Shown here: piece by piece, positions 23,186-62,185 of the stretch
How positions within the stretch are numbered: position 1 is the stretch's first letter
Layout of the letters: every line of letters starts with the position of its first letter
From: a bacterium
Lineage (GTDB): Bacteria > Bdellovibrionota > Bacteriovoracia > Bacteriovoracales > Bacteriovoracaceae
Assembly: GCA_030425045.1 (NCBI GenBank)
Contig: JAUHVL010000009.1
Coordinates: 62,001 to 126,000, forward strand
Length of the DNA stretch: 64,000 nt
Direction of reading: 5' to 3'
The notes under the pieces: model-generated
Databases searched by the model: none
Told to the model about the DNA's origin: nothing
Seen by the model: the letters and a program-made list of their open reading frames with translations, nothing else
Program-made: the position numbers and the translations under genes

Positions 23186-23461
23186 TTATCTTTTAAATAA
23201 TTGAAAGGCCAAAAGAGGATCAATCATTTTAATAAGATTTTCGAGGCCCTCTGTAATCTGTTCTAACCAAGCACTTAGTACTTCAATCATGGCATAGTTG
23301 CTACAAGCAGCGATGATTTGCTCTAGAATTTCATCAAAGATTTCGAGAAGAGGCTCTAGACCTAATTTTTTTACGAAAGCATCAAAAAGGCCACTGGCTT
23401 GTTCTACATCTTGGCCATCGTTAGTGACAACAAATAAAGGATTTTTTGTTTTAGTGGACAT
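23186..23461 (-). CDS. 91-aa protein coupled to a ParA-like ATPase, function unknown
   Basis: The start overlaps the end of the ParA-like gene by 11 bp, so it is translationally coupled. The chain is acidic and mostly amphipathic helix (GLFDAFVKKLGLEPLLEIFDEILEQIIAACSNYAMIEVLSAWLEQITEGLENLIKMIDPLLAFQLFKR), with no signal peptide. It has no resemblance to ParB or to known ParA partners such as TubZ/TubY-like regulators that I can see. A cargo adaptor or regulator of the ATPase is the simplest guess from gene coupling. Confidence 0.6.
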   Translation of the reverse strand: MSTKTKNPLFVVTNDGQDVEQASGLFDAFVKKLGLEPLLEIFDEILEQIIAACSNYAMIEVLSAWLEQITEGLENLIKMIDPLLAFQLFKR

Positions 23462-24335
23462 TCATCTCTCCGAGGCCGCCGGTTCTATTTGCAATGATAT
23501 CGGCAAGCTCTCCAAATTGTTTTTGCAATAATAAGTATTCAGATGATTTATAGTCAAATACTGTTTTCTTTTCAGCGGTCGCTTTGACCAAGCCTACTCT
23601 ATTGTAGAAAGGATCAACCACTCGTTCTTCGCCCCAGTATTCACGAACATCATCTTTTATTTGTTCCAAGTCGTCATTCTCTTGTTTTCTTCTGGTATCC
23701 ATTAAGTTTGGAATATGAGCAAGGACTTCAGGAATCTGCGTTACTCCCATATCTTCAATTTGGTCTAAGATATCATAAAAATGACCAAGCCCTTTTCGGC
23801 TAAGGCCATCAGGTCTAAAAGGAACCATCACCCCATGACAAGCACAAAGAATATTTACCACGAGAAGTCCAAGGGTTGGTGGCCCATCAATAATAATATA
23901 ATCGTAGCGATGTAGAATCCTTTCATTTTCAATAAACTTTTTAAGTATTAACTGTCTCGGAGCAGTAATTCCGGCAACCGTAAGCTCAAGCCCAGAAAGG
24001 TCTTGGCTTGAAGGCAATAAATCCATTCCATTTTTAGTTTTTAATACTCCGGCCATATTAACGGGAGCATGAAGCGCTTTAAGTTCTCTCACTTGATTAA
24101 TAAGCAGGTGAAACAAACTATAACGTGGGTCGACTACATCAAATAGATGAGTGAGGTTGGCCTGAGGATCCATATCAAGACAAAGAACTTTGTGACCTTT
24201 CGCTTTTAATGCGCTAGCAGTATTGAAGGCCAAGGTGGTTTTCCCCACTCCTCCTTTTTGGTTTAGAAAAGCGATAACCTTTCCCTTACCTTGATCAATT
24301 GTTTCCGTTTTCTTTCTCTTTGAAAAAAGCCCCAT
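23451..24335 (-). CDS. ParA/MinD-family ATPase (orphan, chromosomal)
   Basis: The start at ATG 24335 has a good AGGAG site. The 294-aa protein has a deviant Walker A KGGVGKTTLAFN near residue 28, Walker A-prime CLDMDPQANLTHLFD, and Walker B YIIIDGPPTLGLLVVN, i.e. a ParA-type partition ATPase. Residues 1-15 (MGLFSKRKKTETIDQ) form a basic tail. No parB, parS or mip gene is adjacent. Orphan ParAs position cargo such as chemoreceptors, carboxysomes or secretion machines. The cargo here is unknown; the coupled 91-aa protein is the only candidate partner. Confidence 0.88.
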   Translation of the reverse strand: MGLFSKRKKTETIDQGKGKVIAFLNQKGGVGKTTLAFNTASALKAKGHKVLCLDMDPQANLTHLFDVVDPRYSLFHLLINQVRELKALHAPVNMAGVLKTKNGMDLLPSSQDLSGLELTVAGITAPRQLILKKFIENERILHRYDYIIIDGPPTLGLLVVNILCACHGVMVPFRPDGLSRKGLGHFYDILDQIEDMGVTQIPEVLAHIPNLMDTRRKQENDDLEQIKDDVREYWGEERVVDPFYNRVGLVKATAEKKTVFDYKSSEYLLLQKQFGELADIIANRTGGLGEMNVH

Positions 24336-24406
24336 AATCATCTCCTGATGGCCAAATACTACCACTATTTATAAGCAATGCCCATGCTAAGAGCCATTTA
24401 TCATGA

Positions 24407-24832
24407 TCAAATTTTGGTCAGGATTATTTGATAATCACCTAGCTTTCGAGAGTTATAGACAATGGTGATTATCCCCTCTTCGAGGCATATAAATTCACCA
24501 TGATAGAGGCCACCAAGACCAAACTGAACATCAAGAGTAAAAAGATCATTCATTAATTTTTGAGAAGCCTTAATTTTTCCCTGATCAATTCCCCGAGGAA
24601 TTTCATCAACTTCATTAATATGAATCCCCGTTCCAGTGAGAGTATTGGCAAACCAACTTACTTTAGCTTGATGACCAAAAACGGGACCAGAAACTGTATC
24701 GACTCCCGTTTTCAATAATCCACTTCCATCTATCGAAATCGTTCTTCTGAAATCGCTTACCTTACGACAAAAAATATCACTAAAGGAAGTTTGTGAGAAT
24801 AACAGAAATAGAATAAAAATTATCTGCTTCAT
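24407..24832 (-). CDS. Secreted protein, tandem paralogue 1 (141 aa)
   Basis: The signal peptide MKQIIFILFLLFSQTSFS precedes a mature chain starting DIFCRKVSDFRRTISID and containing LYHGEFICLEEGIITIVYNS near the end. The CRxxxDFRR start and the HGExxCxxxG motif recur in the next gene upstream (24832-25281), so the two are tandem paralogues with a probable Cys-Cys disulfide joining start and end. The ATG overlaps the upstream stop (TAATG). It is the last gene of the all-exported operon. Confidence 0.7.
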   Translation of the reverse strand: MKQIIFILFLLFSQTSFSDIFCRKVSDFRRTISIDGSGLLKTGVDTVSGPVFGHQAKVSWFANTLTGTGIHINEVDEIPRGIDQGKIKASQKLMNDLFTLDVQFGLGGLYHGEFICLEEGIITIVYNSRKLGDYQIILTKI

Positions 24833-25281
24833 TAGTTATCAAAACTATAAGTTAAGCTATAACCACCATCGGGCTCGTCACCAACAATGGTGATGCCAAG
24901 ATAACCATCTTTAATACAAGCGTATTCACCGTGAAATGAAGTTCGTAGTCCCTTAGAAAAGACCCCGAGAAAAAGTTCCTCTCGGTCACCATCTACTTTT
25001 CTATAATCTATATCTGGAGTGATATTTGGATAAGTATTAAACACTAAGTTCCAACCGGTGTATTCTGTGCCACCTTTTACAACTTTTTGTTTTGCAATAA
25101 TTGTATCTCTCGCACTATGGCCACTTCCATAATCATCAACACTGGCTTGTATAACGGGGCCACCAGAGGTTTCAATAATATTAACCTGTCTGCGAAAATC
25201 ATCTAAGTTTCGACAAGAAATTGAACTGGCACTTGCTGGAATACTTGTTAAAACAATAGCACTCACTATAATTTTTTTCAT
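24832..25281 (-). CDS. Secreted protein, tandem paralogue 2 (149 aa)
   Basis: ATG 25281 is chosen because it begins a signal peptide (MKKIIVSAIVLTSIPASA); an upstream in-frame ATG would overlap the preceding gene and delay the hydrophobic core. Mature residues SISCRNLDDFRRQVNI and SFHGEYACIKDGYLGITI match the paralogue downstream. The fold is probably a small beta sandwich with one disulfide. The gap to the preceding MORN-like gene is 11 bp. No function is known. Confidence 0.7.
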   Translation of the reverse strand: MKKIIVSAIVLTSIPASASSISCRNLDDFRRQVNIIETSGGPVIQASVDDYGSGHSARDTIIAKQKVVKGGTEYTGWNLVFNTYPNITPDIDYRKVDGDREELFLGVFSKGLRTSFHGEYACIKDGYLGITIVGDEPDGGYSLTYSFDN

Positions 25282-25292
25282 ACCATGACCCT

Positions 25293-26246
25293 TTAATTTA
25301 ACTCTGCTGCTTTTTCTGCACAAAACCTTGGATGTTTAACTTCTTTATTTTTATCAAGACAAATAACAATCTCACCAGTTCGTAGAGGAACCGCCAGTCT
25401 TCTTATTTCAAGATTTTCAAAATAAGTATTACCAGGAATAAAGATTGAGAAAACCTCACCTGTAGGATAAAACTGAGCTGCTAGCGTTTGAAAAGAGTAA
25501 GTCCCACCATTGAAGTTAATCTCAACGACTTCTTTTATTGAACCCACTTCTAAATTTCCGTCTTCTGAAAACTTAACCGCGGTTTTTCTTTTTGGATCTG
25601 TATAAAGAGTCACCACACCAATATTTTTAGTTTGATATTTGAGCTCTTCTCCCTCTTTAAGTGTAAAAAAGCGAGGTGTTCCGTTTTTATGAAAAGCAAC
25701 TTCCGAAGATTGAAAAATATGTACATTTTGCTCGCCAAACTTAATAAAAGAATCGTCAGAAAGTTTATTGGCGTAAGCGATATTACCTTGTTCATCAAGT
25801 TCTAAAAAAGACTTGAACCGTATATTTAATTTCGCATACTCAGTCTCAAACCACTTCTGAGACATGGAGTTACACCCCATCTTATACCGACCGTTTGGAT
25901 GAAAGCTGATAATACGCCCCATTTCCATTCCATTTTGAAATCTTTTATTACAGTCTAATAATAAGGAACTTCCATCTGGGAGTAAGTAGGTAAGATAACC
26001 TATTTGCCCTACCATCATAATTTTACCATTTTCATCGAGCCAAAAATGATTGCCAAATTCAATGACATTATTATCGGCCATTTCAAAGGTATAAGGTTTT
26101 ATAAAGCTACCCGTATGAAGTTTTTCTGTTCCGCTATAAAAAGAAAAATTCGTTACTTCGACATCTTTTCCTTGAATAGAAAAAGTTTTTGAAGATCCCA
26201 TAGAGTTTAAGCTCAATAAGAAAATTAGTACTGCAAATAATTTCAT
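25293..26246 (-). CDS. Secreted MORN-like repeat protein (317 aa)
   Basis: The signal peptide (MKLFAVLIFLLSLNSMGSS) leads into MORN/YwqK-like units: LDENGKIMMVG, FHPNGRYKMG, FHKNGTPRFF, FSEDGNLEVG and FYPTGEVF. Its layout parallels the protein at 12020-13084 (starting IQGKDVEVTNFSF against IHGKVVKTSRLSG). The C-terminus has two cysteines (VICLDK, PRFCAEK). It lies 10 bp from the preceding small gene and 11 bp from the following one, inside the all-exported operon. The function is unknown; such sheets often bind or coat rather than catalyse. Confidence 0.7.
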   Translation of the reverse strand: MKLFAVLIFLLSLNSMGSSKTFSIQGKDVEVTNFSFYSGTEKLHTGSFIKPYTFEMADNNVIEFGNHFWLDENGKIMMVGQIGYLTYLLPDGSSLLLDCNKRFQNGMEMGRIISFHPNGRYKMGCNSMSQKWFETEYAKLNIRFKSFLELDEQGNIAYANKLSDDSFIKFGEQNVHIFQSSEVAFHKNGTPRFFTLKEGEELKYQTKNIGVVTLYTDPKRKTAVKFSEDGNLEVGSIKEVVEINFNGGTYSFQTLAAQFYPTGEVFSIFIPGNTYFENLEIRRLAVPLRTGEIVICLDKNKEVKHPRFCAEKAAELN

Positions 26247-26255
26247 GTTAATCCC

Positions 26256-26588
26256 TTAGAGACAAGGTTTAACAAGACGACGACCTTGCCAAAACGATTG
26301 CTGATCGACCCCAAGATAACTTACGCCATCTCTTGTTTCCATTGCATCTGTAAACATATATCCAGAGCTCGAATTGTCGAAGTATTCGTCATTAATAAGA
26401 TCAACAAGCTCCTCAGCATCACCTTTAAAACAAATATTCTCTTTACCCCAAGCAAAATTTGCTAGACATGATTTATGACGAGTTGTGATGAGATCATAAG
26501 TTTCATCAGTAAAGCGATCATAACAACGTAGCTGAACATTAGCTGCTGATACATTTAAACAAATAAAGAATAATAATAGTAATTTCAT
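26256..26588 (-). CDS. Small secreted Cys-containing protein (110 aa)
   Basis: ATG 26588 is the start that yields a signal peptide directly (MKLLLLFFICLNVSA); it lies 3 bp beyond the protease stop. The mature chain has four cysteines (LRCYDR, KSCLAN, ENICFK, KPCL), consistent with two disulfides. It is a protein of inhibitor or chaperone size immediately downstream of the subtilase. A protease inhibitor or propeptide-like partner is possible but not shown by any motif. Confidence 0.65.
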   Translation of the reverse strand: MKLLLLFFICLNVSAANVQLRCYDRFTDETYDLITTRHKSCLANFAWGKENICFKGDAEELVDLINDEYFDNSSSGYMFTDAMETRDGVSYLGVDQQSFWQGRRLVKPCL

Positions 26589-26590
26589 TT

Positions 26591-29434
26591 TCACCTCACC
26601 TCTTGCCAATTGATTGGCACGATACCTAATTCGATTTTATTTTCACGCTTACATATTAATAAATAAGAATAAAAGTCTTCATTTTTTAATTGCTTTGGCC
26701 CCATATTGGCACACCCTCTAGGGATTCCCACTGACGAAAAAAATGGTCTTATAAAGCTGTCATCCTTAAACACCATAGAATAAAGCCTGTCACCAAAAAT
26801 CATCGTCGAGTCGATATAGATTGCTGGGTATAGCGTGTTTTCGACTTGAGCGTTGATAGGCGAAAAGCTTTCACTAAACTGAGTTTCCTGAAAAGTGGAG
26901 TCACGATTAATGGGAAGTTTTAACGAATACTCGTTAGAAATGGCATGAATATAATAACGACTATTAATAAAAAACTTATTTTTGTCATGACCAGAGATCA
27001 CTTCAAAAATAGGATCAGACCAAAGTCCTGTATTAAAATTGATATCTTCCCTATCGAACTGGCCGAGATCTATTCTTACTTCATTTCTTTTATTATTTCT
27101 TCTGATAAAAGCATTACCTTGGACTGCACCTTTATTATCAAACATTGTGACAAGGCTATTATTTGAAATATCATTATTTGGCCTAAAAGAAATCGTTTGA
27201 ATACTTTTAGTATTAGCAATCGTTAAACTAATATATTTTTTATTCGTATGTTGACCTATACTAAACATCCCTTGTATTTCACCTCTTCTTCGCTGAAGAG
27301 CTGTTTGCTGACTTGGGTTTTCTAAATGAATAAGCTCATTCCAAGGTAAGTCGTATTTTTCAATTAAATCATCAATAAAATCATCGCTATTAATGGCCCT
27401 TAAGTTCACTGTAATTTTGTTTTGAGAAGTCACTGGCTCAAAATAGTATAAATGATATTTTTTCTGAGCCTCAGGTCTTTCATCTAAAAAGTCATCTGTC
27501 TGATCGAGTTCAGGGGTTTTATAGTATTTATAAATTGCAGGCAACATAAGCTGACCTAATCGAGTTTGAGTTTTTACCCAAGAAAATTGCTCTTTTCTTG
27601 ATCTGCTGATTGGTAATCCCTCAAATTCAGAGATGGGGAAATACCACCTATTTTGTGATATAACGGCAGAACCATCCAAATTTAAAAACTCCAAAATTAA
27701 ATTTTTTCGCTCAAGATCCATGCCGTAAACAAAAAGATCGGTCTTTCCATCTAGGTTTGTATCGTTTGCAAAAATACCTAGCAGTTGATGATAGTTCTTC
27801 AACTTCAATTGTGTTGCAACAGGACCATCTTTTTTAATAGTGAGAAGACTAACGTCAATATCTCGATCAACTTTACTGTCGGTATAGACAATTGGATTTT
27901 CTAATAAACGGTGAGGGTCACTGACAAAGTTGCCGATAAAAAAAGAACGTCGACCACCAGCATGAAGAAGTTTATCCAGTCCATTTCCAGCGACGGAAAT
28001 GAAGTTGTCTTGATTAAGAGTCCTAGCAAACATTAATGTTGTTGCTGTAGTTTGGGTGAACTCACCTACTTTAATTGTCACAACTAGCTTAGCATTATTA
28101 TCTGCTAGTTCGTTTACAATCTTACCCTTTACTTTTAATAACTTCGTTTCTCCACCAGAAATAGTTTCAATTGTATTTGTCGTATTATCTAGTTTTAAGG
28201 CCTCCGATTCGATCACTGTTTTTACTTCAATATTACTTACCGTTTTGAGATAATTCTTAATTGGTAATTCAAACTCAAAGGTTTTTGACTGAGTATCGTA
28301 TTTCACATCTAGTAGGTTTTTATAGGAAGGACTTAAAAAAGTTTTAGGCTCAGCGGCAAGCGCCTTTTTCATCGACGCTCGTGCAAACTTACTAAACTTA
28401 TCTCCCTTAACGATATCGATTGCTGAGCTATAAAGTTTTGCTTTCATCGCATCTACACCAATGCGAGGATCGAGAAGTCTCATATTTGCCAGTATGGCCG
28501 AAATAAAAGGAGCCGCCTGAGATGTTCCCTTTAATGATTCGTAGCCTTTTATTCGCAAAATATCTGACTCAATATCAGTTGCAGGATATGTCGAAACAAT
28601 TTGATCACCAGGAGCAAGGATATCTACTTTTCCACCATAATTTGAAAATTCACTATAAAGTCCATCCACACCATAAGACCCAACACAAATTACATCTTCA
28701 TAGGTACAAGGATAAATCGGAATTTCTTTATTATTATTTCCTGCAGCTGCAACGATAGCGACATTATTTCTTTTTGCATATGCGATAGCATCTCTCATTC
28801 TTTGAGTCTCGACAAGACTAGGAAATCCTAATGATAGGTTCACCACATCCGCTTCGTTTTTAACGGCGAAAATAATTCCATCAGCAATAACATCAGTAAT
28901 CAGCTTTCTTCTATTATTTTCAGTATAGACATAACCTTCAAGCATCGGATCAAGTACTTTGACAGGCATAATTAAAACATTTTGATGAGCAGCTCCTCTT
29001 ACGCCAAATTCATTTTTATTAGCAGCAATAATACCTGCCACATGAGTACCATGTCCGTCATCATCGATAACGTTTCGATCTCTTTTGAAGGCATTATACC
29101 CATGACAAGCTTTTTCAATTTTTTCTTCATTACTTTCAGGAAGCTCGGGACATGTTTTTTTATTTTGCCAAAATCTTCCTTTTAAATCAGGATGAAAAAT
29201 ATCAACACCTGTATCAACAACCGCAACCACGGCCTTTCGATGAGCGGGTACTTCGATATCAGTCCACTCAATATCGATACCTTCAATTCCTTTTATTTCT
29301 CTTCGACTAAATTCACTATCATCGACAAGTAATGTTTGACCTTTATTGAAAAGACCCCACTGACGAGTTAATAACGTATCTGTTGCTTGTGTGTTAAGTG
29401 CTATTATTGAAAGAAGTGCTAATAGTTTTTTCAT
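26591..29434 (-). CDS. Secreted subtilisin-like serine protease (S8) with large C-terminal region
   Basis: The 947-aa protease has a signal peptide (MKKLLALLSIIALNTQA) and then the S8 domain with the full triad: Asp74 in VVDTGVDIFHPD, His128 in DDDGHGTHVAG and Ser near 305 in GTSQAAPF, plus the oxyanion Asn in AAAGNNN. There is no obvious long propeptide: the domain starts by residue 60. The C-terminal 580 residues are beta-rich, with a calcium-type loop DTNLDGKTDLFVYG near residue 570. It probably degrades host or envelope proteins outside the cell. Its ATG overlaps the stop of the 1015-aa gene (ATGA). Confidence 0.93.
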   Translation of the reverse strand: MKKLLALLSIIALNTQATDTLLTRQWGLFNKGQTLLVDDSEFSRREIKGIEGIDIEWTDIEVPAHRKAVVAVVDTGVDIFHPDLKGRFWQNKKTCPELPESNEEKIEKACHGYNAFKRDRNVIDDDGHGTHVAGIIAANKNEFGVRGAAHQNVLIMPVKVLDPMLEGYVYTENNRRKLITDVIADGIIFAVKNEADVVNLSLGFPSLVETQRMRDAIAYAKRNNVAIVAAAGNNNKEIPIYPCTYEDVICVGSYGVDGLYSEFSNYGGKVDILAPGDQIVSTYPATDIESDILRIKGYESLKGTSQAAPFISAILANMRLLDPRIGVDAMKAKLYSSAIDIVKGDKFSKFARASMKKALAAEPKTFLSPSYKNLLDVKYDTQSKTFEFELPIKNYLKTVSNIEVKTVIESEALKLDNTTNTIETISGGETKLLKVKGKIVNELADNNAKLVVTIKVGEFTQTTATTLMFARTLNQDNFISVAGNGLDKLLHAGGRRSFFIGNFVSDPHRLLENPIVYTDSKVDRDIDVSLLTIKKDGPVATQLKLKNYHQLLGIFANDTNLDGKTDLFVYGMDLERKNLILEFLNLDGSAVISQNRWYFPISEFEGLPISRSRKEQFSWVKTQTRLGQLMLPAIYKYYKTPELDQTDDFLDERPEAQKKYHLYYFEPVTSQNKITVNLRAINSDDFIDDLIEKYDLPWNELIHLENPSQQTALQRRRGEIQGMFSIGQHTNKKYISLTIANTKSIQTISFRPNNDISNNSLVTMFDNKGAVQGNAFIRRNNKRNEVRIDLGQFDREDINFNTGLWSDPIFEVISGHDKNKFFINSRYYIHAISNEYSLKLPINRDSTFQETQFSESFSPINAQVENTLYPAIYIDSTMIFGDRLYSMVFKDDSFIRPFFSSVGIPRGCANMGPKQLKNEDFYSYLLICKRENKIELGIVPINWQEVR

Positions 29435-32400
29435 TGCAGCTCCCTCAACCAGCTACCGTAGAACTCTCCACTTTGCATGCCAATTTTTTCTAAAAGAGTT
29501 GAAACGGGTCCATTCCAATAACGTCCACCATGGATATTTCCAATAGTATGAGACCGGATCGGTTCATTTAATATTTCTGAGTTTTTTCTAAAGCCATTTA
29601 TAGTAGCGTGAACAAAAACATTTTCACTGCCAACAAGCTCAATAATTTTATGAGCAGGAGTATCCTCGTTATACATCGTTAAAAATTTCATCATACACTG
29701 GAGATACTTCTCTCCTTTGACAATCATCCACTTTCCATCTCTTTTAACACGAGCAACCTGATTACATTTTCTAAACTGAACAATTGATTTACATTCTTGT
29801 TGATTATCGTCATTACCTGAGGATTGACGACAATCACTTCCGATCACTTTAAGATCATTTTCTTTTAATGAAATGAGTTTTTTCACACCTTCTTCATAAA
29901 TATTCATATGAGAAGTTATTTCATAAAGCTGTAGTCCTCCGAGACCTTCAATCATTTCGTCTGAGAAAAGTTCTCTTCTAAAGTCTCTTTTAATTTCGTT
30001 AGTCTTTCTCTTTATTCGTCTAACGCCTGTACTCCAACCTTGATAACGAGTTGTTAGCCTGACAAAGGGGTGCTCAATCACATTGTGATCCATAGGAACT
30101 CTCCCCTCGAAAGAGGCCATTTTAGTTTTAGAGCTTCCGTGAATTGTTTGACCAGGGTTTTTATCAGCATTATTATTTAGCGCTCCTTCAAAATCTTCAA
30201 AGTGCTTCTTGATATAAAAATTTAAGAGATCCGTTACAAAAGCTTGATAATTAAATCCCGTTATTTTTGAAAATTTTAAGTCTAAAAATCTATACTCTCG
30301 ATCACGATGGTCTTTAAATAAAAGATCCGTACTATTACTAATTGATTTGTCGTAAAGAAATAAAAATCTAAATCGAAAAGACTTATCTAAAAAGCTTGCT
30401 TTAAACTCGTAATGATCTGTTACTTCATCTAATAGTTCAGTTGAGTTATTTTCTAATAAATCGTGTAACGAACGTCCGACAGCTACGATATCCCCTTGCT
30501 CTGGATTGATATTTAAGTTATAGAGGTTTGTTTCGTATTCACCTTTTCTTCTTTTGGCATTCACATTAAGAATCGGAATATGGTAGCTGACATTTAGCAG
30601 AAAGCTTAATTCGAAGGCCTTTCCTTTATCTACATAGACTTGAACAATATCACTGCTTTTTCTATAAATTTGCATTCGACGAACAAAGTCTTTCTTGGCA
30701 TTAAGACCAAATGAGACGCCCGTTTCTCCAAAGTAAACTCCTGCACCAGCAGAGACAGATGGAACGATTTTATCTGTAATGATGAGAGATTCCCCCACAC
30801 TTAAAGATTCATTTACAGACCTTACAATTTCTTTTGTTACATCTCTTTGGTCTTCTTCTTGATCCTCATAAGCCGGCATAGAAGCTAACTTATCAAGAGA
30901 CTCTTTTAAATCTTTTTTGATGAGAGGAACAATCATATTTCGGTATGGTTCTTCAAATGTTTTTTTCAAACTTTGAACCGGTCTTAAATGAGAGAATGTT
31001 CTAATAAAACTTCCTGTTGCTTTGGAATGAACATTCACTAAGGTCGGAACATTTTCAAAACCAATATGAACTCCGGCCGTTGCTGCATACCCAAAAGTAT
31101 CGGCCATTTGTACCAAATTATCTGTACCAAAATAATTACCGACAACAATATCTCTTGAAAGAATAAGTGTTCCATCAAGGACAGGACTGGTCCAATATCC
31201 GACGCCAAACTCTAAAAGCTCACCCGTTTCAATAAAATGGTTGAGACCTTTTTCAAATTGATCTTGATGAAAAGCAATCTTTTGATCAGTTGGATTAAAA
31301 GCACTCAGTTCAGCATTCACTCTCAACATCAATTCATCGATTCCCGTTTTTTGAAGTTTGTTAAAAATAAAATATTCGAAGTCTTTAAAGGGACTTTCGG
31401 TATCCCCATGAGAAAAACGTGTCGCATAACCTTCCCATGTTTCACGAGTAAGTTTTCCCTTAACTAACTCTTCGCCATGAGATATCTCTGCATTGACATC
31501 AAGCTTGTCATGATCAAGCTCAAATAAAGTAATAAGACTATTTCTTCTCGCTATAAGCTTTTCAACAATTAGTTTCTCAACACTTTCAGGAAAATATGAT
31601 TTTTTAACAATATCGACAAAGTCATAGCGATCTAATTTGGCCAGGCGATTTAAAATCCAATAGGCATCTTCAAGACCTGTATTTAAAAGGCCATAGGCAA
31701 AATGCTCAAGTGTAATGTGCTCATTATCTATTCTACCAACAGACCATTTAAATTTATTGACTGACTCTTTGAGATCAGCAAGAGCGTAAGGAACAGCAAG
31801 TGCGCGAAGGACTCGATCTTCTAAAGGTCTCGGTGGGTTACCAACGGGAACACCTAAGGCAACATTATAATGATCTCTTTGCGAAGGAGTCATGACGGCC
31901 ACATCATAAAGAGAGACCGTTAGCTTATCGTTATCTTTATCATCATCATTGACAAGCCAACGTGAACTGGCACCGTAGGTATTATTCACAATGGCCTTTC
32001 CATCACCAATTAAATTATTTTTTTCCTCAAGCGAAGAGAATGTTAAATTAAGTTTTTTAACATACTTAATTTCAGGAATTTTATAACCAAGTTTTTTTAA
32101 TAAATTTTTACGAAGTAAAATGGTGTGTAGCTCTCTATGCATAAGAACAATATGATAAGAATTCTCATCTCTTTTAAGCGCATTAAATCTCATTAGCCCA
32201 GTATAAGAAAGCATGGTCCCGGTAAAGTCTAGGTCCATTTCATTTTCTACTTCAGGAGCAAGACTTCCTTTTTCATCGGACCATATTTCACTTTCATGAG
32301 GATTCATTAGAGCGATATTCACACCTCTTTCATGAAGCTTTAATACCTCTTCTGGAGAAATTGAGCGTCCATTGAAATTCAAATCCTGCGCAGGCAGTTT

Positions 32401-32478
32401 CATTTCTTTCAAAGGAATAGAGACTTCGTAGGCATACAAAGACGTCAAAGCGAATAAGGTAAGTAGGAGTACTCTCAT
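29431..32478 (-). CDS. Large exported protein of unknown function (1015 aa), leads the protease operon
   Basis: The signal peptide MRVLLLTLFALTSLYA is followed by about 1000 residues without a domain I recognise. An N-terminal third carries VLMHRELHTILLRKNLLKKLGY. The centre has beta-rich segments reminiscent of a barrel or passenger (VVGNYFGTDNLVQMADTFGYAATAGVHIG, VPSVSAGAGVYFGETGVSFGLNAKKDF). The C-terminus has paired cysteines (SDCRQS, QECKS, FRKCNQ, LQCMMK). The stop overlaps the subtilase start by 4 bp, so the two are made together. It could be an outer-membrane or extracellular partner of the protease. Confidence 0.7.
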   Translation of the reverse strand: MRVLLLTLFALTSLYAYEVSIPLKEMKLPAQDLNFNGRSISPEEVLKLHERGVNIALMNPHESEIWSDEKGSLAPEVENEMDLDFTGTMLSYTGLMRFNALKRDENSYHIVLMHRELHTILLRKNLLKKLGYKIPEIKYVKKLNLTFSSLEEKNNLIGDGKAIVNNTYGASSRWLVNDDDKDNDKLTVSLYDVAVMTPSQRDHYNVALGVPVGNPPRPLEDRVLRALAVPYALADLKESVNKFKWSVGRIDNEHITLEHFAYGLLNTGLEDAYWILNRLAKLDRYDFVDIVKKSYFPESVEKLIVEKLIARRNSLITLFELDHDKLDVNAEISHGEELVKGKLTRETWEGYATRFSHGDTESPFKDFEYFIFNKLQKTGIDELMLRVNAELSAFNPTDQKIAFHQDQFEKGLNHFIETGELLEFGVGYWTSPVLDGTLILSRDIVVGNYFGTDNLVQMADTFGYAATAGVHIGFENVPTLVNVHSKATGSFIRTFSHLRPVQSLKKTFEEPYRNMIVPLIKKDLKESLDKLASMPAYEDQEEDQRDVTKEIVRSVNESLSVGESLIITDKIVPSVSAGAGVYFGETGVSFGLNAKKDFVRRMQIYRKSSDIVQVYVDKGKAFELSFLLNVSYHIPILNVNAKRRKGEYETNLYNLNINPEQGDIVAVGRSLHDLLENNSTELLDEVTDHYEFKASFLDKSFRFRFLFLYDKSISNSTDLLFKDHRDREYRFLDLKFSKITGFNYQAFVTDLLNFYIKKHFEDFEGALNNNADKNPGQTIHGSSKTKMASFEGRVPMDHNVIEHPFVRLTTRYQGWSTGVRRIKRKTNEIKRDFRRELFSDEMIEGLGGLQLYEITSHMNIYEEGVKKLISLKENDLKVIGSDCRQSSGNDDNQQECKSIVQFRKCNQVARVKRDGKWMIVKGEKYLQCMMKFLTMYNEDTPAHKIIELVGSENVFVHATINGFRKNSEILNEPIRSHTIGNIHGGRYWNGPVSTLLEKIGMQSGEFYGSWLRELQ

Positions 32479-32587: not shown

Positions 32588-32612
32588 AAAAAGGGACCCT
32601 AAGGTCCCTTTT
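32588..32612 (-). terminator. Terminator of the triple-repeat protein gene
   Basis: The perfect 10-bp stem AAAAGGGACC (32589-32598) with GGTCCCTTTT (32603-32612) and a 4-base loop is followed by a T run on the minus strand. It isolates the gene at 32633-33559 from the protease operon, whose promoter must lie between about 32480 and 32580. Confidence 0.8.
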
Positions 32613-32632: not shown

Positions 32633-33559
32633 TTAATAAATTCTTGAATTGATTTCTGCGATTAAATTAGAAAGTCTATTGTCTAATCTATTTAATCTTC
32701 TTCTAAAGTCTTCTCTTTGAGACCAAGAGTAGACACTATCGACAGCAATTTGAGCGTTAACAATAAGTTCTCTCATTCTCACCATTGCTCTTTTTACTCT
32801 TCTCGCTGGTGCCATATTATTGATTCTTGTTTCAATAACATTAGCTTGTTCAATTAATGGTCTAATATTTCCTTCTGATAAATAATAAGGAACAGTCCAT
32901 CTCATTTCAGAGGCAAGAGTTGAAATTTTAGAAGCAACATCTAAAACTCTCCCATTAAAACCAAGACCAGGTCTTACTGGGTTTGTATAAATCTCGTTTC
33001 CACAACGAGCATTATTACGACACTGATAATAATCAGTGTTATAAGCATTCATACATTTAGAGACGACGTGATTCTTTGTTTGAAAACGATCTCTACTTTC
33101 ATCAGAGAAAACCTGTCCTCTTGATCTGGTCTCACATCTCACCATTGGTGCTGTATAAGATCCGTCGTTACAACTTACGTTTACACGACACTCAAAAGAA
33201 GTTGTTCTATAACTACTTTGACAAGAGTTGATTGCTCTTTCTCTCACGTTATAAGAATTTCTTCCTGATTCCGTAAAGAAAAGTCCATTCGATTCTGTAT
33301 TACATGAAACACGTGGGTATGTGACAACGCCACCACCGTTTCCACCAGTGTTACTACCTTGACAGTTTAGGTTTAAACGACAATCACCACTATTGGTTCC
33401 ATGAGACTGGTTACACCTTCTCACTGTATTTCTCGAAGCCTCAGTTCTTGTTTGCCCTTTACCAGCAAAGTTTAAACCATTTGAGCTTGTACTACATCTC
33501 CATGCGGCTTCAGCAGAAAATGTTAACCCTAACATTACACTTAAAATTAAAGTTTTCAT
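32633..33559 (-). CDS. Secreted protein with three tandem Cys-rich repeats
   Basis: After a signal peptide (MKTLILSVMLGLTFSAEA) come three repeats of about 50 residues, each with a first Cys followed by an SxG-x-x-F motif, then spaced cysteines: RCSTSSNGLNF...VRRCNQ...DCRLNLNC; SCNTESNGLFF...INSCQS...ECRVNVSC; RCETRSRGQVF...VSKCMN...QCRNNARC. Each unit has four Cys. They are separated by a Gly/Asn linker (GSNTGGNGGG) after repeat one. The C-terminal 110 residues are helical and Arg-rich (AMVRMRELIVNAQIAVDSV, EDFRRRLNRLDNRLSNLIAEI). Carbohydrate or protein binding is plausible; no family is recognised. Confidence 0.72.
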   Translation of the reverse strand: MKTLILSVMLGLTFSAEAAWRCSTSSNGLNFAGKGQTRTEASRNTVRRCNQSHGTNSGDCRLNLNCQGSNTGGNGGGVVTYPRVSCNTESNGLFFTESGRNSYNVRERAINSCQSSYRTTSFECRVNVSCNDGSYTAPMVRCETRSRGQVFSDESRDRFQTKNHVVSKCMNAYNTDYYQCRNNARCGNEIYTNPVRPGLGFNGRVLDVASKISTLASEMRWTVPYYLSEGNIRPLIEQANVIETRINNMAPARRVKRAMVRMRELIVNAQIAVDSVYSWSQREDFRRRLNRLDNRLSNLIAEINSRIY

Positions 33560-33613: not shown

Positions 33614-34486
33614 TTATTTAATATTAAACATTGGTAGAAGTTCTGCTTCAATTCTTTGAGAGCTTACACCAATTTTGTCAGCGATTTTATCAAGAACAAC
33701 TTCTTTTTTGTCTTCATCAACTGAAGCCTCAAGAATTTCTGTCATCGAAGTTCCTGTAAACTCTAACATCCCTTTAGTAAGAGCATCTTGATCAGCTTGA
33801 GTTAATTCACCTTTTGATGAACCTTTCTTAAGCATTTCATTAGCTGTATCACCAAGAGAAACAAGAGCTTTTGCTGTATCAAAAGGAAGCTTCATCGACA
33901 TAGAAAGCTTCGCTGAACGACGGATAAAGTCTTCACTTTGAGCTCTACCGGCCATAAGAGCAACGTCTTTTGTTTCCGTTTCATCTTCATAGATTTCAAA
34001 AGAGTTAACACCTTCAAACCATAGGAAGTTTCCGAAAGCATCAAATTCTTCAGTAACAACTTCGTAATCTGTACCCGTTGCTTCACCGTTTACGTCACCA
34101 TTTAAGATGTCATCAACTTCGATATCTCTGAACTCTTGTGCCGTTGCATCGAAATTGTTTCTATAAAAGTCATAGTAAACAATTGATCTTAAGTACTGAA
34201 GACTAAAAGCTTTGTACTCACCATAAAGAGCATCCCAGATAACGAAATAATCGTCTTCACCAGGGATAGCAGAACGGATTGTTTGGTTAATATCTAACTC
34301 AAGCTCTGATTCATTTAATGGATTAGCTCCATCAACGTAGTTTAATGAATCGAGAAAGTGAGCAACTGTAATAGAAGGTGATTGATAAGTCCCAAATGTG
34401 GAAGTACCACCACCTGAACAAGAACCTAAAACTAGAGCTGCGGCCATAGACGCACCAATAGCGAGGTTTTTCATTTCTTTTTTCAT
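33614..34486 (-). CDS. Lipoprotein of unknown function (290 aa)
   Basis: ATG 34486 follows a strong GGAGGAG site. The lipoprotein signal MKKEMKNLAIGASMAAALVLGSC has lipobox LGSC, and the next residues SGGG would keep it on the outer membrane rather than signal retention. The mature domain is acidic and mostly helical (DEDKKEVVLDKIADKIGVSSQRIEAELLPMFNIK), with no Cys other than the lipidated one. No family is recognised. It is flanked by terminators or gaps and is probably monocistronic. Confidence 0.75.
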   Translation of the reverse strand: MKKEMKNLAIGASMAAALVLGSCSGGGTSTFGTYQSPSITVAHFLDSLNYVDGANPLNESELELDINQTIRSAIPGEDDYFVIWDALYGEYKAFSLQYLRSIVYYDFYRNNFDATAQEFRDIEVDDILNGDVNGEATGTDYEVVTEEFDAFGNFLWFEGVNSFEIYEDETETKDVALMAGRAQSEDFIRRSAKLSMSMKLPFDTAKALVSLGDTANEMLKKGSSKGELTQADQDALTKGMLEFTGTSMTEILEASVDEDKKEVVLDKIADKIGVSSQRIEAELLPMFNIK

Positions 34487-34699
34487 ATTCTCCTCCACAA
34501 AATATGTATTGCCTCGTAAAGCGTGCGCCGTTTATATCTTCCTTTTGAAGTCACGACAACTCATGTCAGAAGTTTACAGACATTAACAATTTTTCATAGT
34601 CAATGTGACACCATTAAGAAAATAGTGTGAAAGCTAATTTAGTAACTTGCTGATTTCAAATTTTTAATTTCTTGATTGCGAGATTAACAAAAGAAAAAA

Positions 34700-37600
34700 T
34701 TAGTTCTCATCATAATCACTACTAGCTTCATCGATAGGAATGATACAACGGAAACCAACATCGGTTCGGTTATTTTTGGCCTCATCGGTAACATCTTCTA
34801 AATATTTTTCTGAAGAAAAAGGAGTTTGAGTAGCTGAGGAGTCTCCTGAAATATAAGCTTCAACTAAGCCTGTGGCAGCAGTATTAACGGCAGCGGCCAC
34901 CACTTCTGCCGTGGGAGTGACACTATCACCGAGATTCACTGTAATATCATTACCAGAGACACCAACGTTGATCGCTCCGGTAGATGCGGTATATTTAATA
35001 TTCACCAGAGAAGGAGTACCTGCCCCACTAATATAAACATAAGAAACGTCTTGAATAGTGAGAACACCTTCCGCATCATTACCACAAGGAATATATTCAC
35101 TCGTCCAGACACCGGCCCCGGTTCCTGAACCATCATAACTTCCACCATAGGCAAGTCCACCACACCTGGTGCTATTAGAAGCGGCAATATATTTTGAATT
35201 CACTTTAATGGTATCATCGTGAAGCAGATCGTGATCGATCACGGTTCCAAGTTCAAGCATATCTACATTACTAGTGGGGTTATCGGCCAAGAAATCTCTG
35301 TGAGCAACAAGGCCTACGGGAACAAACATTCTTCCAGCAGAAAATGCTTCTGTCTCTAAAGACCATGAACCAATATTACTATCACAAATATCATCTCCAC
35401 CACTAGCATCATTACAAGGACCTTTCACTCCATCAAGCGCCCAGTTTCCAAAGACTGCAGACTCGGCGGCACTACTAGAAGTATAATCTCCGTCGAGTGC
35501 ACCTGTTAAATTATTGCCATCAGTTGAATCAGCGGCAAAACATTTTGAGAGCGCTTCATCTTCAGTGACTCCACCATTATCAACATGGCAAGTAATTCTA
35601 TCGAGTGTCCACTCCGCCACATTTCCAACAGCGTCTTGTACTCCAAATAAACTGACACAATTATTAGTTTCACCACTTCCCGTCACAACTGAGCGAATAT
35701 TACTGGTAAATGTTCCCGGTAGTGAGAAAAAGTCTGCACTACTTGGTACAGAGACATCACTATAAGAAGATGAAATACCGCTGGCATTACTTGAGTTACA
35801 CTTTGAAATACTATTAAGTGATAACCCTGCTTCTAGAGCAAGTATCTCAGAATCCGTATCTGTCGCATCGGCAGATGTATCCCATTGAGAAAAAGCAACC
35901 TGCTCTTTTCTTGAAGGAAGTTTATAACTTAAATTATTTCCAATTCCATAGATCTCTTCAAAATCAATTTGATCGAGAGAAGAACAAAATCGATGAGCAT
36001 CAGCCTGAGTTACATTAACAAGAGGAGGGAGGTTAGATCGGTTATAATACTTATCCGTTGTCTCATCATCCTGGGCCGTTGAAAGATCATTGGCATCAAA
36101 GGCAACCAAAGCGGCATTATCGACCGCGGCTAAATAATTATCAACTTGAGTATTTCCTGTAATTTGTTGCCAAGCTCCTGCGACACGAACATAACATGTC
36201 CCGTTTGATCTAGCATAATAAACAGAATCATCGGCAGCGGTTGCTCCCTCTGTCGTAGGATCATCGATACCAATACAAGAACCATCAACTGTTCCAGTAC
36301 AAGCAGGAGCCGCACTATAAGCACAACCGGCTTCATAGCGATCAACTAAATAATCAAATGAAATATCATAATACTGAGTCCCACTATCAGTGACATCTCC
36401 AGGACCAATATATTCACAACGGTAATTATTATTGGGATCCGTCGCTCTATTCATAATGTCACAAATTGTTTTATTGGCCATCCAACGATGAACAAAGGCC
36501 ATATTTTTAGGTGGTGAAACCATTCTCAGTTCAGTAAAAACATCACTGGTCGCTGTTAAAACACCATCAACCACTGGCCTGACTTCATAAAAATAAACCG
36601 TATTGGGAATCGGTGGTCTTAGTGAATAAAAAGCATTATCCATAAAAGTATAAGTACTACTTGAACCATCTATGGTTAGCCTATTGATTGGATCATCGTA
36701 ATCATAAGACTCTTCAGAGGCCCTTCTAAAAACTTTATATTCAGTAATACTACCTGAACCTGAAACAGAAAAAGCATTCCACGTTAATTTAATCTCACTA
36801 GTGGCATCATATGGCACCCAAGAGAAAGCATCTGATGAATCTTTCATGGCACGATAACACACACCACCTTCTTCATCATAATAACGTGAATCGACAACCG
36901 TTGGTGTCACCCCTGGAGCACCTTTGCCTAAACAAGTTTCTCCATAAGTAGAACAAGCAGACTCTTCGTCAGTATGAGAGATTGCACAATTGGTGGTAAA
37001 CGTTTCCCAGTTGGCATTACTAAGGTTCCCCACACTCACAACACTTTGAGAGTCTTGTTCTTCTCCACTATCGCGGTTAAACACTTTAACTAGACCATTT
37101 GCTGTGGTGTCGCCTTCGATCGCTGTTATGATTTGATCAGTAGTCGACACATTATCTTCTATTGTCACAGTAATAACATAAGGGTCACCTGACGTTCCCG
37201 AACCTGTCGTTGCAACCGTTTCAGAACCTGCAGTCACACCATCAGTATAGACAATTGAAACATAACTAGTCGTTTTAGGAACATAATGAATATCTTGAAC
37301 CGCCGTTCTTTTAACTCTAAAACAAGTTTGAGTACTTCCCACTTCATAAAGATAAATCGCCTCAAAACTATCCGGGTCAGCTGCAGCATTATTGAGAGGA
37401 GTCGCAGAAGTACTATAACAACTCGTCCCCCCTTCACATAAGTCACGACTGAAAGGACAATGATTTCTATCTTCAGTAATAAATCCGTTACGATCGACTT
37501 TAGGTCCTGTAGCGGCCATCGCTTCCCAACCACCATGAGTAGCCGAGTTACCTTGAACCGTAACAGTGAATTCAACTTCTGTGGTTTGAGTACCATCACT

Positions 37601-40243
37601 AAAAGTTAATTCAATATCGGAGCTTCCAGTCTGTCCGACAACAGGAACAATTTGTAATGAAAAATCTCCAGCATCTTCAGAAGAGCCATCACCAAAAGCA
37701 ATTGGCAAAGATCCCGCATTACAATTATCACTTAAAGTATCACACGTAGTCGTGCCACTAAAGACAACTTTAATATTTCCTAGCGGAACAAGTGTTGTAT
37801 TACTACTACTAGCTACAGTAATACTTAAAGACTGGGCATCTTCTCCAGCATCGCCCCCACCTTCATCAACTTTAATTTTATCAATCACAATAGTTTGCAA
37901 TTCATTGACAGTTTTATCTTTTATATAAGATGTAATAGCACTCCAACTACCACCACTTGATTGGTAACAAGCCGCTGAGTTGGTATCGTAATAAACAAGC
38001 CCATCAAGATCTGGTGTGATTGAAGAAGGATCACCGTTTCCAATACAACCATTGAGACCACAAACAGTAGTATCTGAGTAATTACTATATTCACAAATAA
38101 GAGGAGTATCATCTACTGGCTGGATCGAAATATGAAACTCACGATCGGCCGTCGCCCCTGTACTATCAGTGACTCGATAAACGAAACTATCTGCCGTTGC
38201 CGTTCCCGCTGACAGAGTATAGGTTCCATTAATTCCCGTTAACGTTGTGGCCGGTGCGCCATCAGAATCTTCGGCCCGAATAAGCGCTTTAACTCTAGCG
38301 TTGGCATCGACGGCGGCAATAATATCATCAGTATCTGAGACACCACTTTCATAGAGGATTTTTATAGTATTTCCATCAAGCCAAGCTTCTTCACTTCCTC
38401 CACCAACACCATCAGCTTCGATGATTTCAACACTGATAGCATTACTAGAGTCACCATAGGTGCTTGAGATAAATCTTAAATCTGTTGCACCAACATCATC
38501 AAAACCTTTATTGGCCGTGGTATCAGCTAGCGTTGCCGAGTTATTTAAATTTCCATTACTCGGAGTATAGGTACAAGTTAAGTCAGTCGTTCCACTACTT
38601 CCCGTAGCATCCATACAACCCGTTAACGTCCCACTACTTGGAGCTGTCACAATAGAGTAAGTTAAAGATGTATCTCCATCGGGGTCATGGGCCGTCGCAA
38701 TTTCAAAGTCTACATAATTTGGTAAATGAGTTGAGGATTCATTAAAAGTGACACTGCCGTTTGAGTCAACGGCCGAGGTTCCTACATTATCTTCAAACGA
38801 TGTCGCACTTGAAGCTGTTCCAAAAGGAATAGGATTATCTCCCTGAGCATACATTATAAAGTTCACCGTTTGCGCCGAAGACGTTGTCGGAGCGGTACCT
38901 GAGGTAACAGTATAATCAAAAGAGCCGACACCTGTAGTGTGCGCCTTACCCGTTAGTCCAACGGTACAAACATTGGCCACACAGGTACAGTCTGTTGAAA
39001 CATAAACGCCATTAAGCGAAGAAACACTACAACTACTTATAGTCTCACCACCATCTGGCTCTACATAAGTAAGAGTGACTTGATCATCTGTAGGATCATT
39101 GGCCTGAGTATCTTCATTAAAACCTGTAATACTTGTCAAAGTTCCATAAGGCGCATCGGCCGCCGCCGTAACACTGATATTTATTGTTTCATAAGCAGTA
39201 CAAAGAAGATCCGGGTCACAAACTCTAAAGGTAAAGGAATCAGCAGCGGTGCTATTGGTTGCCGTAACATATGAGTAAGTTCCATCTCCATTTAGCGTTA
39301 ATGAACCAGCAGGATCTGTCCCTACTTCATAAGTGAGTGTCGCACCCGTCGGATCGCCATCATTGGTATCAGAAACTGAGAAGCCAGCATCTGTTGCTAA
39401 CGTTCCACCTGCTACAACATCCTCAGTAACCGTCATCGAACCCGTTGTTACCGTAATTGAAGGAGCATCATTAACAGAAGCAATACTAACACTTGAAAGC
39501 TTATAAGCACTGGTACCGTCATTATCTGTTAAACGATAATAAAGATCGGTGGAACCATTGTAATTATCTGAAGGAGTTAATGAAAGTGAGCATGTTCCCC
39601 CCGTACAATTACAAGGAAGCTTTGAAATGGGAGTGTAGCTTAACGTATTATCTATTCCAATAAACTGACTGATGGATGCATTTAAATCACAACTTGCATC
39701 TCCATCACTACAGTCATCATCGGCATCGCCATTAATGAGTGAGGCAATTGTAGAAGATGTGGTACTTCCTAGTACGACGTTAATGGTAATATAAGTATTG
39801 GGTGCACTATAAACTCTAGAAACAGAAGCAGATCCGGCACTAACAAAACGAACATAAATATTATGAGCATCATCTATATCTGTATTCGAATTAATGATCA
39901 CTCCATCATGCTCTAGTCTTTTCACTAGCCCTGAACTTAAAGAATAGGCCTCACAACTGGTGGCAAGGTCTCCTCCATTATCGGTATATCTGAGATTAAA
40001 AGAATCCGCCGTATCTTCAGTTAATGCAAATGATCCCGTGATAGGAGCAGGCGCTCCATCAGTTGATCCACCTGTTGACGAGCTTACACATGCTCTCGTT
40101 TTAGAATTAAAAGTTCCACCGCTACAAGCAGGATCACTTCCTTCTTCGGAAACAGAAGGCACACAAGATGTGAAAATAAAGATGGCCATAAGACCAACAG
40201 TACTTATTCCACCTTTATATATGTTTTTAAAAAATTCCTTCAT
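34700..40243 (-). CDS. Giant lipoprotein with cadherin-like repeats and FGE-sulfatase-type C-terminal domain
   Basis: From the Met of MKEFFKNIYKG the product is about 1847 aa. The lipobox is FTSC. Residues about 70-620 hold beta-sandwich repeats of the VCBS/cadherin type (SITVTTGSMTVTEDV, GDGTYSYVTATNSTAADSF, NDAP linkers). Four short modules ending in iTV...aAi...lV and four Cys modules with the pattern CxG...YY...CYR...W recur in the middle. A fibronectin-like segment (IKLTWNAFSVSGSGSITEYKVFRR) precedes the C-terminal 590 residues, which follow the FGE-sulfatase order: YKLPSRKEQVAF, LFGVQDAVGNVAEWTLDR, LAYGGSYDGSG, DVGFRC. It is probably a surface adhesin. Catalytic residues of true formylglycine-generating enzyme cannot be confirmed. 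Confidence 0.8.
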   Translation of the reverse strand: MKEFFKNIYKGGISTVGLMAIFIFTSCVPSVSEEGSDPACSGGTFNSKTRACVSSSTGGSTDGAPAPITGSFALTEDTADSFNLRYTDNGGDLATSCEAYSLSSGLVKRLEHDGVIINSNTDIDDAHNIYVRFVSAGSASVSRVYSAPNTYITINVVLGSTTSSTIASLINGDADDDCSDGDASCDLNASISQFIGIDNTLSYTPISKLPCNCTGGTCSLSLTPSDNYNGSTDLYYRLTDNDGTSAYKLSSVSIASVNDAPSITVTTGSMTVTEDVVAGGTLATDAGFSVSDTNDGDPTGATLTYEVGTDPAGSLTLNGDGTYSYVTATNSTAADSFTFRVCDPDLLCTAYETINISVTAAADAPYGTLTSITGFNEDTQANDPTDDQVTLTYVEPDGGETISSCSVSSLNGVYVSTDCTCVANVCTVGLTGKAHTTGVGSFDYTVTSGTAPTTSSAQTVNFIMYAQGDNPIPFGTASSATSFEDNVGTSAVDSNGSVTFNESSTHLPNYVDFEIATAHDPDGDTSLTYSIVTAPSSGTLTGCMDATGSSGTTDLTCTYTPSNGNLNNSATLADTTANKGFDDVGATDLRFISSTYGDSSNAISVEIIEADGVGGGSEEAWLDGNTIKILYESGVSDTDDIIAAVDANARVKALIRAEDSDGAPATTLTGINGTYTLSAGTATADSFVYRVTDSTGATADREFHISIQPVDDTPLICEYSNYSDTTVCGLNGCIGNGDPSSITPDLDGLVYYDTNSAACYQSSGGSWSAITSYIKDKTVNELQTIVIDKIKVDEGGGDAGEDAQSLSITVASSSNTTLVPLGNIKVVFSGTTTCDTLSDNCNAGSLPIAFGDGSSEDAGDFSLQIVPVVGQTGSSDIELTFSDGTQTTEVEFTVTVQGNSATHGGWEAMAATGPKVDRNGFITEDRNHCPFSRDLCEGGTSCYSTSATPLNNAAADPDSFEAIYLYEVGSTQTCFRVKRTAVQDIHYVPKTTSYVSIVYTDGVTAGSETVATTGSGTSGDPYVITVTIEDNVSTTDQIITAIEGDTTANGLVKVFNRDSGEEQDSQSVVSVGNLSNANWETFTTNCAISHTDEESACSTYGETCLGKGAPGVTPTVVDSRYYDEEGGVCYRAMKDSSDAFSWVPYDATSEIKLTWNAFSVSGSGSITEYKVFRRASEESYDYDDPINRLTIDGSSSTYTFMDNAFYSLRPPIPNTVYFYEVRPVVDGVLTATSDVFTELRMVSPPKNMAFVHRWMANKTICDIMNRATDPNNNYRCEYIGPGDVTDSGTQYYDISFDYLVDRYEAGCAYSAAPACTGTVDGSCIGIDDPTTEGATAADDSVYYARSNGTCYVRVAGAWQQITGNTQVDNYLAAVDNAALVAFDANDLSTAQDDETTDKYYNRSNLPPLVNVTQADAHRFCSSLDQIDFEEIYGIGNNLSYKLPSRKEQVAFSQWDTSADATDTDSEILALEAGLSLNSISKCNSSNASGISSSYSDVSVPSSADFFSLPGTFTSNIRSVVTGSGETNNCVSLFGVQDAVGNVAEWTLDRITCHVDNGGVTEDEALSKCFAADSTDGNNLTGALDGDYTSSSAAESAVFGNWALDGVKGPCNDASGGDDICDSNIGSWSLETEAFSAGRMFVPVGLVAHRDFLADNPTSNVDMLELGTVIDHDLLHDDTIKVNSKYIAASNSTRCGGLAYGGSYDGSGTGAGVWTSEYIPCGNDAEGVLTIQDVSYVYISGAGTPSLVNIKYTASTGAINVGVSGNDITVNLGDSVTPTAEVVAAAVNTAATGLVEAYISGDSSATQTPFSSEKYLEDVTDEAKNNRTDVGFRCIIPIDEASSDYDEN

Positions 40244-40493
40244 ATACCCACACATTCCATCATTAGCTTATCGATCTAAAACCAGTAAAACTTAATAATT
40301 CCGACTGTTTCACTCAGACCGTGCTCTCTCTCTATTTTCACCGAAAAAAATAATGTTTGATTTGAAATTCACATTGATTGATTAATTTTCAAGGACTTAC
40401 TTATACTTTAAGATCGATTTGCCCACGAGAGAATTGTTAAAATTGCCTCAGATATATGCCATCAAAATCAATCTTTTTGGTATAATTTTATAG

Positions 40494-61702: not shown

Positions 61703-62185
61703 TTATTCAAATGAACATTTATAGATAAATCGATTCTTATCACTTTTATTTGTCGAAAAAAGAATCTCACGAAGAATGATATCCTCTCCATTTTCATCTC
61801 TGGTAAAAAGAGCACTGGCCTTATAAGGTTGAAAAGGCTTTTCAACCCATAGTGCAAAATCCCTTTGGTGAAGCATATAGGGACTCTTCGCTTTCATTTT
61901 TTTAAAGATCTTATCACCAATTTCAAGATTCATTTTCTTTACGGGTTTGCCACCAATAAACATATGACTTGGGCCATTTCTTCTAGGCCTGACACTTCCT
62001 ATTCCAGCAAGTTCTCCTGTAAATTCAACCAAAGCCTTACAAATTTCTCCAACAACGTTGCCTACGCTCTGACATTCGACTTCATTTTGTTGGCAGTACT
62101 TTGTTTCTATTACTTTTCCAACAAACGTTACTTCTTTTGCCACTAAGTTATTTGAGATCAATAGTAAAAAAATAAGTTTAAGCAT
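61703..62185 (-). CDS. Secreted protein of unknown function (160 aa)
   Basis: ATG 62185 follows GGAGAG and yields the signal peptide MLKLIFLLLISNNLVAK. Mature residues include CQQNEVECQSVGNVVGEICKALVEFTGELAGIGSVRPRRNGPSHMFIGGKPVKKMNLEIGDKIFKKM; cysteines at the start and end (YKCSFE) suggest disulfides. The sequence has no family I recognise. The longer in-frame reading begins with GTG inside the preceding gene. It is 16 bp downstream of the catalase-like gene, so the two form an operon of exported proteins. Confidence 0.65.
   Translation of the reverse strand: MLKLIFLLLISNNLVAKEVTFVGKVIETKYCQQNEVECQSVGNVVGEICKALVEFTGELAGIGSVRPRRNGPSHMFIGGKPVKKMNLEIGDKIFKKMKAKSPYMLHQRDFALWVEKPFQPYKASALFTRDENGEDIILREILFSTNKSDKNRFIYKCSFE

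Follow-up and report, generated by a model that had tools for sequence, protein, structure and literature searches.

The dentilisin complex of Treponema denticola (PrcB-PrcA-PrtP) contains a subtilase that is encoded with a large partner. The ASP subtilase of Aeromonas sobria depends on a partner, ORF2, encoded by a neighboring gene (PMC5638518), and Bd2428, an S8 protease of Bdellovibrio bacteriovorus, is among the predator proteins found in empty, killed prey and has been proposed to damage prey (PMC11003981). It is still an open question how the enzymes of predators pass through the predator outer membrane and reach the prey. Here we examined a subtilase locus in a member of the Bacteriovoracaceae (phylum Bdellovibrionota; 3.97 Mb genome, assembly GCA_030425045.1), using a stretch of 64,000 nt (the window; positions 62,001 to 126,000 of contig JAUHVL010000009.1). 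In this window, the genes for a 1015-amino acid (aa) exported protein (denoted LRG; 29431..32478, minus strand) and a 947-aa S8 subtilase (denoted SUB; 26591..29434, minus strand) overlap by 4 bp (ATGA). The original prediction, made from the sequence alone, treated these genes and the four small genes that follow as a single six-gene unit. We find that LRG and SUB are the conserved core, that a lipoprotein gene outside the six (denoted LPP; 33614..34498, minus strand) is a third conserved component, and that in this genome four small, unrelated genes for exported proteins were appended after the module.

LRG matched 103 of the 129 genomes of the order, and an LRG profile matched 220/369 genomes of the Bdellovibrionota. 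For wider genome contigs, a scan with the single LRG sequence gave no match, and the profile detected 57 loci, each of which carried either a Bdellovibrionota-type label or that of an unplaced proteobacterial metagenome-assembled genome. We compared 81 loci around LRG-family genes (several species per genus are included, so the counts are not independent). SUB was adjacent to LRG in 78 of them, named relatives included, with the two genes mostly overlapping or SUB starting within ~25 bp after LRG; at a few loci (L081, L141), the gene order is reversed with the adjacency kept. The best SUB match was on a contig that also had an LRG match in 86/91 genomes; in most of the other five, the assembly is fragmented. 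For the four genomes carrying two pairs, LRG and SUB share the same nearest-relative locus at 7/8 loci. Mirror-tree comparison of the LRG and SUB distance matrices gave r = 0.945 (77 pairs), a correlation that is partly due to species history, which does not explain the result for genomes with two pairs. We conclude that LRG and SUB are a real unit, that paralogous pairs co-duplicate and that the pair is almost inseparable. A candidate in-frame fusion of the two genes in one genome (G025, a 2129-aa open-frame entry) was rejected, as the open reading frames (ORFs) are separate.

No Pfam or NCBIfam model matched LRG above its cut-off, and a sequence search of the PDB gave no match. The AlphaFold (AF2) model, based on 48 sequences (pLDDT 85.3, pTM 0.82), shows, from residue 427 to residue 964, ~14 long strands corresponding to a predicted barrel (residues ~427-964) that is preceded by a predicted N-terminal domain (residues ~17-370). 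When the model was compared with known structures by VIA-align, all 50 among the matches listed were outer-membrane barrels, headed by CymA (Z = 16.3 over 254 residues, root mean square deviation [rmsd] 6.0), with OmpG at Z = 13.0 and the NalP translocator at Z = 12.2. Since VIA-align only re-aligns Foldseek candidates, we also checked the alternation of hydrophobicity between the inside and outside faces of the strands, which was 1.38 for the 14 LRG strands versus 0.38 for the soluble strands of SUB. On the basis of this modeling, LRG is likely an outer-membrane β-barrel. The original prediction stated that no transporter is included in the unit; the predicted LRG structure speaks for a membrane barrel, and hence a possible transporter, instead of a soluble co-secreted protein.

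SUB matched the Pfam family Peptidase_S8 (PF00082) with E = 4.7e-44 and 151.3 bits (gathering score 21.8), and the catalytic triad is retained across the family (D74 in 76/77, H128 in 76/77 and S305 in 77/77 members). The model of residues 18-364 has a subtilisin fold (Z = 41.1 and rmsd 2.4 to deseasin MCP-01), and the same residues align to mature thermitase from residue 4 of the latter (Z ~41). Because the catalytic domain thus begins at residue 18, directly after the signal peptide, the SUB protein of the window lacks a propeptide. Consistent with this, Pfam detected no I9 propeptide domain in it, nor in nine divergent members. Of the 60 members in which an N-terminal QW motif was located, 42 have it among their first 63 residues; the N-terminus is longer in the remaining 18, which belong to divergent lineages. 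The ~580 aa following the catalytic domain are β-rich. SUB scored below the cut-offs of two NCBIfam equivalog models, those for dentilisin PrtP (89.1 bits, cut-off 300) and type VII secretion mycosin (151.9 bits, cut-off 278.75). Judged by these sequence features, SUB is a secreted S8 subtilase with an intact triad and is predicted to be an active enzyme. At a locus in another genome (G101, C34:15294-17042), a match to the C-terminal part of SUB contains one internal TAG stop and is possibly a decaying copy.

Unbiased clustering of the neighbors of LRG loci revealed LPP, a family of ~290-aa lipoproteins that is the next conserved neighbor family after SUB and is present in 69/81 loci. A recognizable lipobox was found in 68 of the 86 members; that of the window protein is LGSC. 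LPP gave no match above cut-off to any Pfam or NCBIfam model, SusD-like Pfam domains included. The position of LPP varies: the gene can be upstream or downstream, at times on the opposite strand, and often is in tandem copies. That the association persists through these changes of side and strand suggests a functional link to LRG and SUB. In the window, LPP is set apart from LRG by a gene and a terminator, while at several Bdellovibrio loci it is chained directly behind SUB. The original unit, bounded at 24407 and 32478, therefore enclosed the LRG-SUB pair and missed LPP.

One such Bdellovibrio locus is in the genome that we take to be that of B. bacteriovorus HD100 (G132), where the LRG-SUB pair spans 2332599-2339095 and a rhomboid gene (PF01694) adjoins LPP. 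This locus is orthologous to that of the window, with LRG, SUB and LPP in one direction, and differs from it in that LRG (1133 aa) and SUB (1033 aa) are longer and LPP is directly after SUB. Because Bd2426 is a rhomboid-like protein (PMC3818213) and Bd2428 is an S8 protease, the adjoining LPP, SUB and LRG genes probably correspond to Bd2427, Bd2428 and Bd2429, respectively. Bd2428 is up-regulated at 30 min of predation (PMC2797640) and, as cited in the same paper, is one gene among the predation-deficient mutants of Tudor. We found no mention of the tags Bd2427 or Bd2429, and in the HD100 literature that we found only the protease is noted, with the partner barrel and the lipoprotein not described there. 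The part of the original prediction in which a protease is delivered together with a large partner, here in a relative of predators, is supported by the conserved pair and by the recovery of what is probably its HD100 protease from killed prey.

The picture was different for the four genes behind SUB. No homolog of the 317-aa (25293..26246), 149-aa (24832..25281) or 141-aa (24407..24832) proteins, all encoded on the minus strand, was detected in the 128 other genomes of the order, and the 110-aa, five-Cys protein (26256..26588, minus strand) has homologs in only seven other genomes, all encoded away from the module. Synteny of all six genes was not found in relatives. In addition, 60/78 loci have no co-directional gene within 60 bp after SUB, and the window, with six co-directional genes after SUB, is the extreme among SUB loci. 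Given that these genes are absent or unlinked elsewhere and that most SUB loci lack a follower, the six-gene set is a core of two genes with local additions. A conserved six-gene operon was accordingly rejected by the homolog searches: of the synteny anticipated by the original prediction, the adjacency of LRG and SUB held and that of the other genes did not. Genes 3-6, being separate or missing in relatives, gave the outcome that the original prediction had itself named as refuting the unit, and the small, disulfide-linked accessories it envisaged are, at best, peculiar to this genome. The homologs of the 110-aa protein (L198-L204) form a family of small exported Cys proteins with the motif C-ADF-WG--NVCF-G, found in unlinked contexts in the seven genomes.

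The physical layout itself was described accurately. All six ORFs are on the minus strand, running from 32478 to 24407, with gaps of 2 bp between SUB and the 110-aa gene, 9 bp between the 110-aa and 317-aa genes and 11 bp between the 317-aa and 149-aa genes, and one base shared by the 149-aa and 141-aa genes (TAATG). The last two products, exported proteins with two Cys each, are indeed tandem paralogs (33% identity, E = 1.6e-6). The label MORN-like fared less well for the exported 317-aa protein, for which no Pfam family, MORN included, matched at E ≤ 1, though degenerate xFxxxGxx repeats are visible; none of the four small proteins matched a Pfam or NCBIfam model above cut-off. By a simple rule, all six products carry a plausible Sec signal peptide, as had been claimed. 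By the same rule, 27 of the 55 genes in the window encode exported products, and the co-directional run of such genes reaches upstream to 34498, making the finding that all six are exported less unusual than first thought.

Upstream of LRG, an intrinsic terminator (32589..32612, minus strand; 10-bp stem and T-run) marks the 5´ edge of the transcription unit. Because this good terminator closes the upstream gene, LRG is likely the first gene of the unit; a weak promoter-like site lies immediately 5´ of its ATG. The gene between LPP and LRG (32633..33559, minus strand) has terminators on both sides and encodes an exported protein of 308 aa that contains three repeats rich in Cys, each of ~60 residues; the protein had no Pfam match and falls outside the conserved neighbor families of LRG loci. 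At the other end, 24407 is not the limit of the co-directional run: a gene for a ParA/MinD-like ATPase (23451-24365, minus strand; AAA_31, E = 5e-40) comes 41 bp later, without an intervening predicted terminator, and is followed by an overlapping 91-aa ORF, both within 23186-24365. Further upstream, 34700-40255 (minus strand) encodes a very large probable lipoprotein (1851 aa), possibly an adhesin, that has repeats of the bacterial Ig/cadherin-like type and a C-terminal region that is FGE-sulfatase-like at a score below the cut-off.

What might the module do? We propose that LRG, SUB and LPP would each cross the inner membrane by Sec and that LRG would insert in the outer membrane of the predator, where it would pass its cognate SUB to the surface or the outside, or hold it there. 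LPP would serve as a membrane accessory, and SUB would cut proteins of the prey envelope or periplasm. To this overall reading, a Bdellovibrionota module of SUB, the predicted barrel LRG and usually LPP, with LRG exporting or anchoring its cognate SUB as a tool against prey, we give about even chances. Several observations weigh against it. On its own, Foldseek gave no significant match for LRG (best E = 0.0068, TM ~0.1), strands 8-12 are weakly hydrophobic outward, and Pfam detected no POTRA, plug or other translocator domain in LRG. Some divergent SUB proteins carry ~80-110 extra N-terminal residues, possibly a propeptide, though without I9. A few long LRG variants (L073, L139, L143; 1123-1230 aa), which are natural separations of the pair, have no SUB nearby, and HD100 has a distant LRG paralog (L197; 236225-239692, plus strand; E = 2.5e-29) without an adjoining subtilase. 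The assignment of Bd2427-2429 to the HD100 locus is deduced from neighboring genes instead of being taken from an annotated record, and the main text of a transposon sequencing study does not mention these tags (PMC6561027). The same text states that five proteases, not named there, with high intraperiplasmic expression were missed, likely owing to redundancy (PMC6561027). Finally, a predatory lifestyle is not known for most of the sampled genomes. As a separate observation, the L197 paralog may show the role of the barrel on its own.

The main rival is a digest-and-import system, in which SUB would cut prey proteins at the surface, LRG would be a peptide channel and LPP a binding lipoprotein, making the module a functional equivalent of RagAB/SusCD with a protease. 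Such systems combine a barrel with a lipoprotein and a hydrolase, a solute channel (CymA) heads the structural matches of LRG, the barrels of RagAB and the levan utilisome are in the Foldseek list, and pairwise co-evolution would fit too. However, LRG has no TonB-dependent receptor or plug domain by Pfam at E ≤ 1, LPP has no SusD-like Pfam domain, and predators also secrete numerous proteases for which no pairing with a barrel is known; we consider this rival unlikely, while taking it seriously. Next after it comes a role for LRG mainly as an external chaperone or inhibitor of a propeptide-less protease and not as an exporter, as for ORF2 and ASP, a documented case of a subtilase with a neighbor-encoded chaperone (PMC5638518; 3wqb). 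Such a role would suit the missing propeptide of the window SUB and would fit the tight pairing and co-duplication of the two genes. An LRG of ~1000 aa with a predicted membrane-type barrel speaks against it, as do some SUB proteins that have an N-terminal extension and still keep LRG, and we judge it distinctly improbable.

The two remaining explanations concern what is delivered. In the first, genes 1-6 would form a single toolkit that is delivered jointly, the small Cys proteins being accessories of the protease. In its favor are the gaps of ≤11 bp and the overlaps, which suggest co-transcription, and the signal peptides of all products. Yet none of the 128 relatives has genes 4-6, gene 3 lies away from the module in the other genomes that have it, the LRG-SUB pair occurs without genes 3-6 in all other lineages, and the co-directional run goes on into the ParA gene. 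A single six-gene unit, which was the central claim of the original prediction, is thus very unlikely. Even smaller is the chance that LRG is delivered with SUB into prey and inserts in the prey membrane as a pore. The probable HD100 SUB was found inside killed prey (PMC11003981), but LRG (Bd2429) is not named in the text of any of the papers found, no pore activity is known, and a barrel directed at prey is not required by the data.

If, as we propose, LRG exports or anchors SUB, the module would be a predator-specific secretion route. A reported prey-associated protease, probably Bd2428, now has a predicted, so far undescribed partner in the outer membrane, from which it is almost never separated, together with a lipoprotein; the association is phylum-wide, and the module is present in a genetically tractable strain, HD100. 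The case also illustrates how, in a packed operon whose products are exported, a conserved core can be told apart from genes added locally, and we find the redrawn unit more interesting than the original six-gene unit.

The module was also compared with several described systems. Like dentilisin, it has a subtilase and a large partner, and the PrtP model matches SUB below cut-off (89 versus 300); a relation of PrcA to LRG was not found. ASP, too, is a subtilase that lacks a propeptide and has its partner encoded by the adjacent gene. ORF2, however, is encoded downstream and is a folding chaperone and inhibitor, whereas LRG is a large protein with a predicted membrane barrel, encoded upstream. 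A barrel encoded beside a cognate exported protein is also found in two-partner secretion (type Vb) and Slam systems, but their sequences are unrelated to LRG and SUB by Pfam: at E ≤ 1, there was no match to a two-partner secretion domain in SUB, to POTRA in LRG, or to the Slam barrel domain with an N-terminal TPR in LRG. Nor did LRG match the plug and receptor domains of the SusC/RagA-type TonB-dependent importers at this threshold. LRG may still work like two-partner secretion, Slam, SusC/RagA or an autotransporter, despite falling outside these families by domain content. In NalP and the other subtilase autotransporters (type Va), a subtilase is likewise served by an outer-membrane barrel, and the NalP translocator is among the top structural matches of LRG. 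The passenger and barrel of type Va systems are one polypeptide, whereas SUB and LRG are products of separate, overlapping genes, and LRG, unlike NalP, has 14 predicted strands and a large N-terminal domain. In a bolder reading, to which we give less than even odds, LRG would found a new class of outer-membrane translocators: a barrel of 14 strands dedicated to the export of its cognate protease, which is a separate protein lacking a propeptide, with a lipoprotein assisting. The module would then be a two-gene counterpart of the subtilase autotransporters and would act in the Bdellovibrionota as a conserved secretion system for predation.

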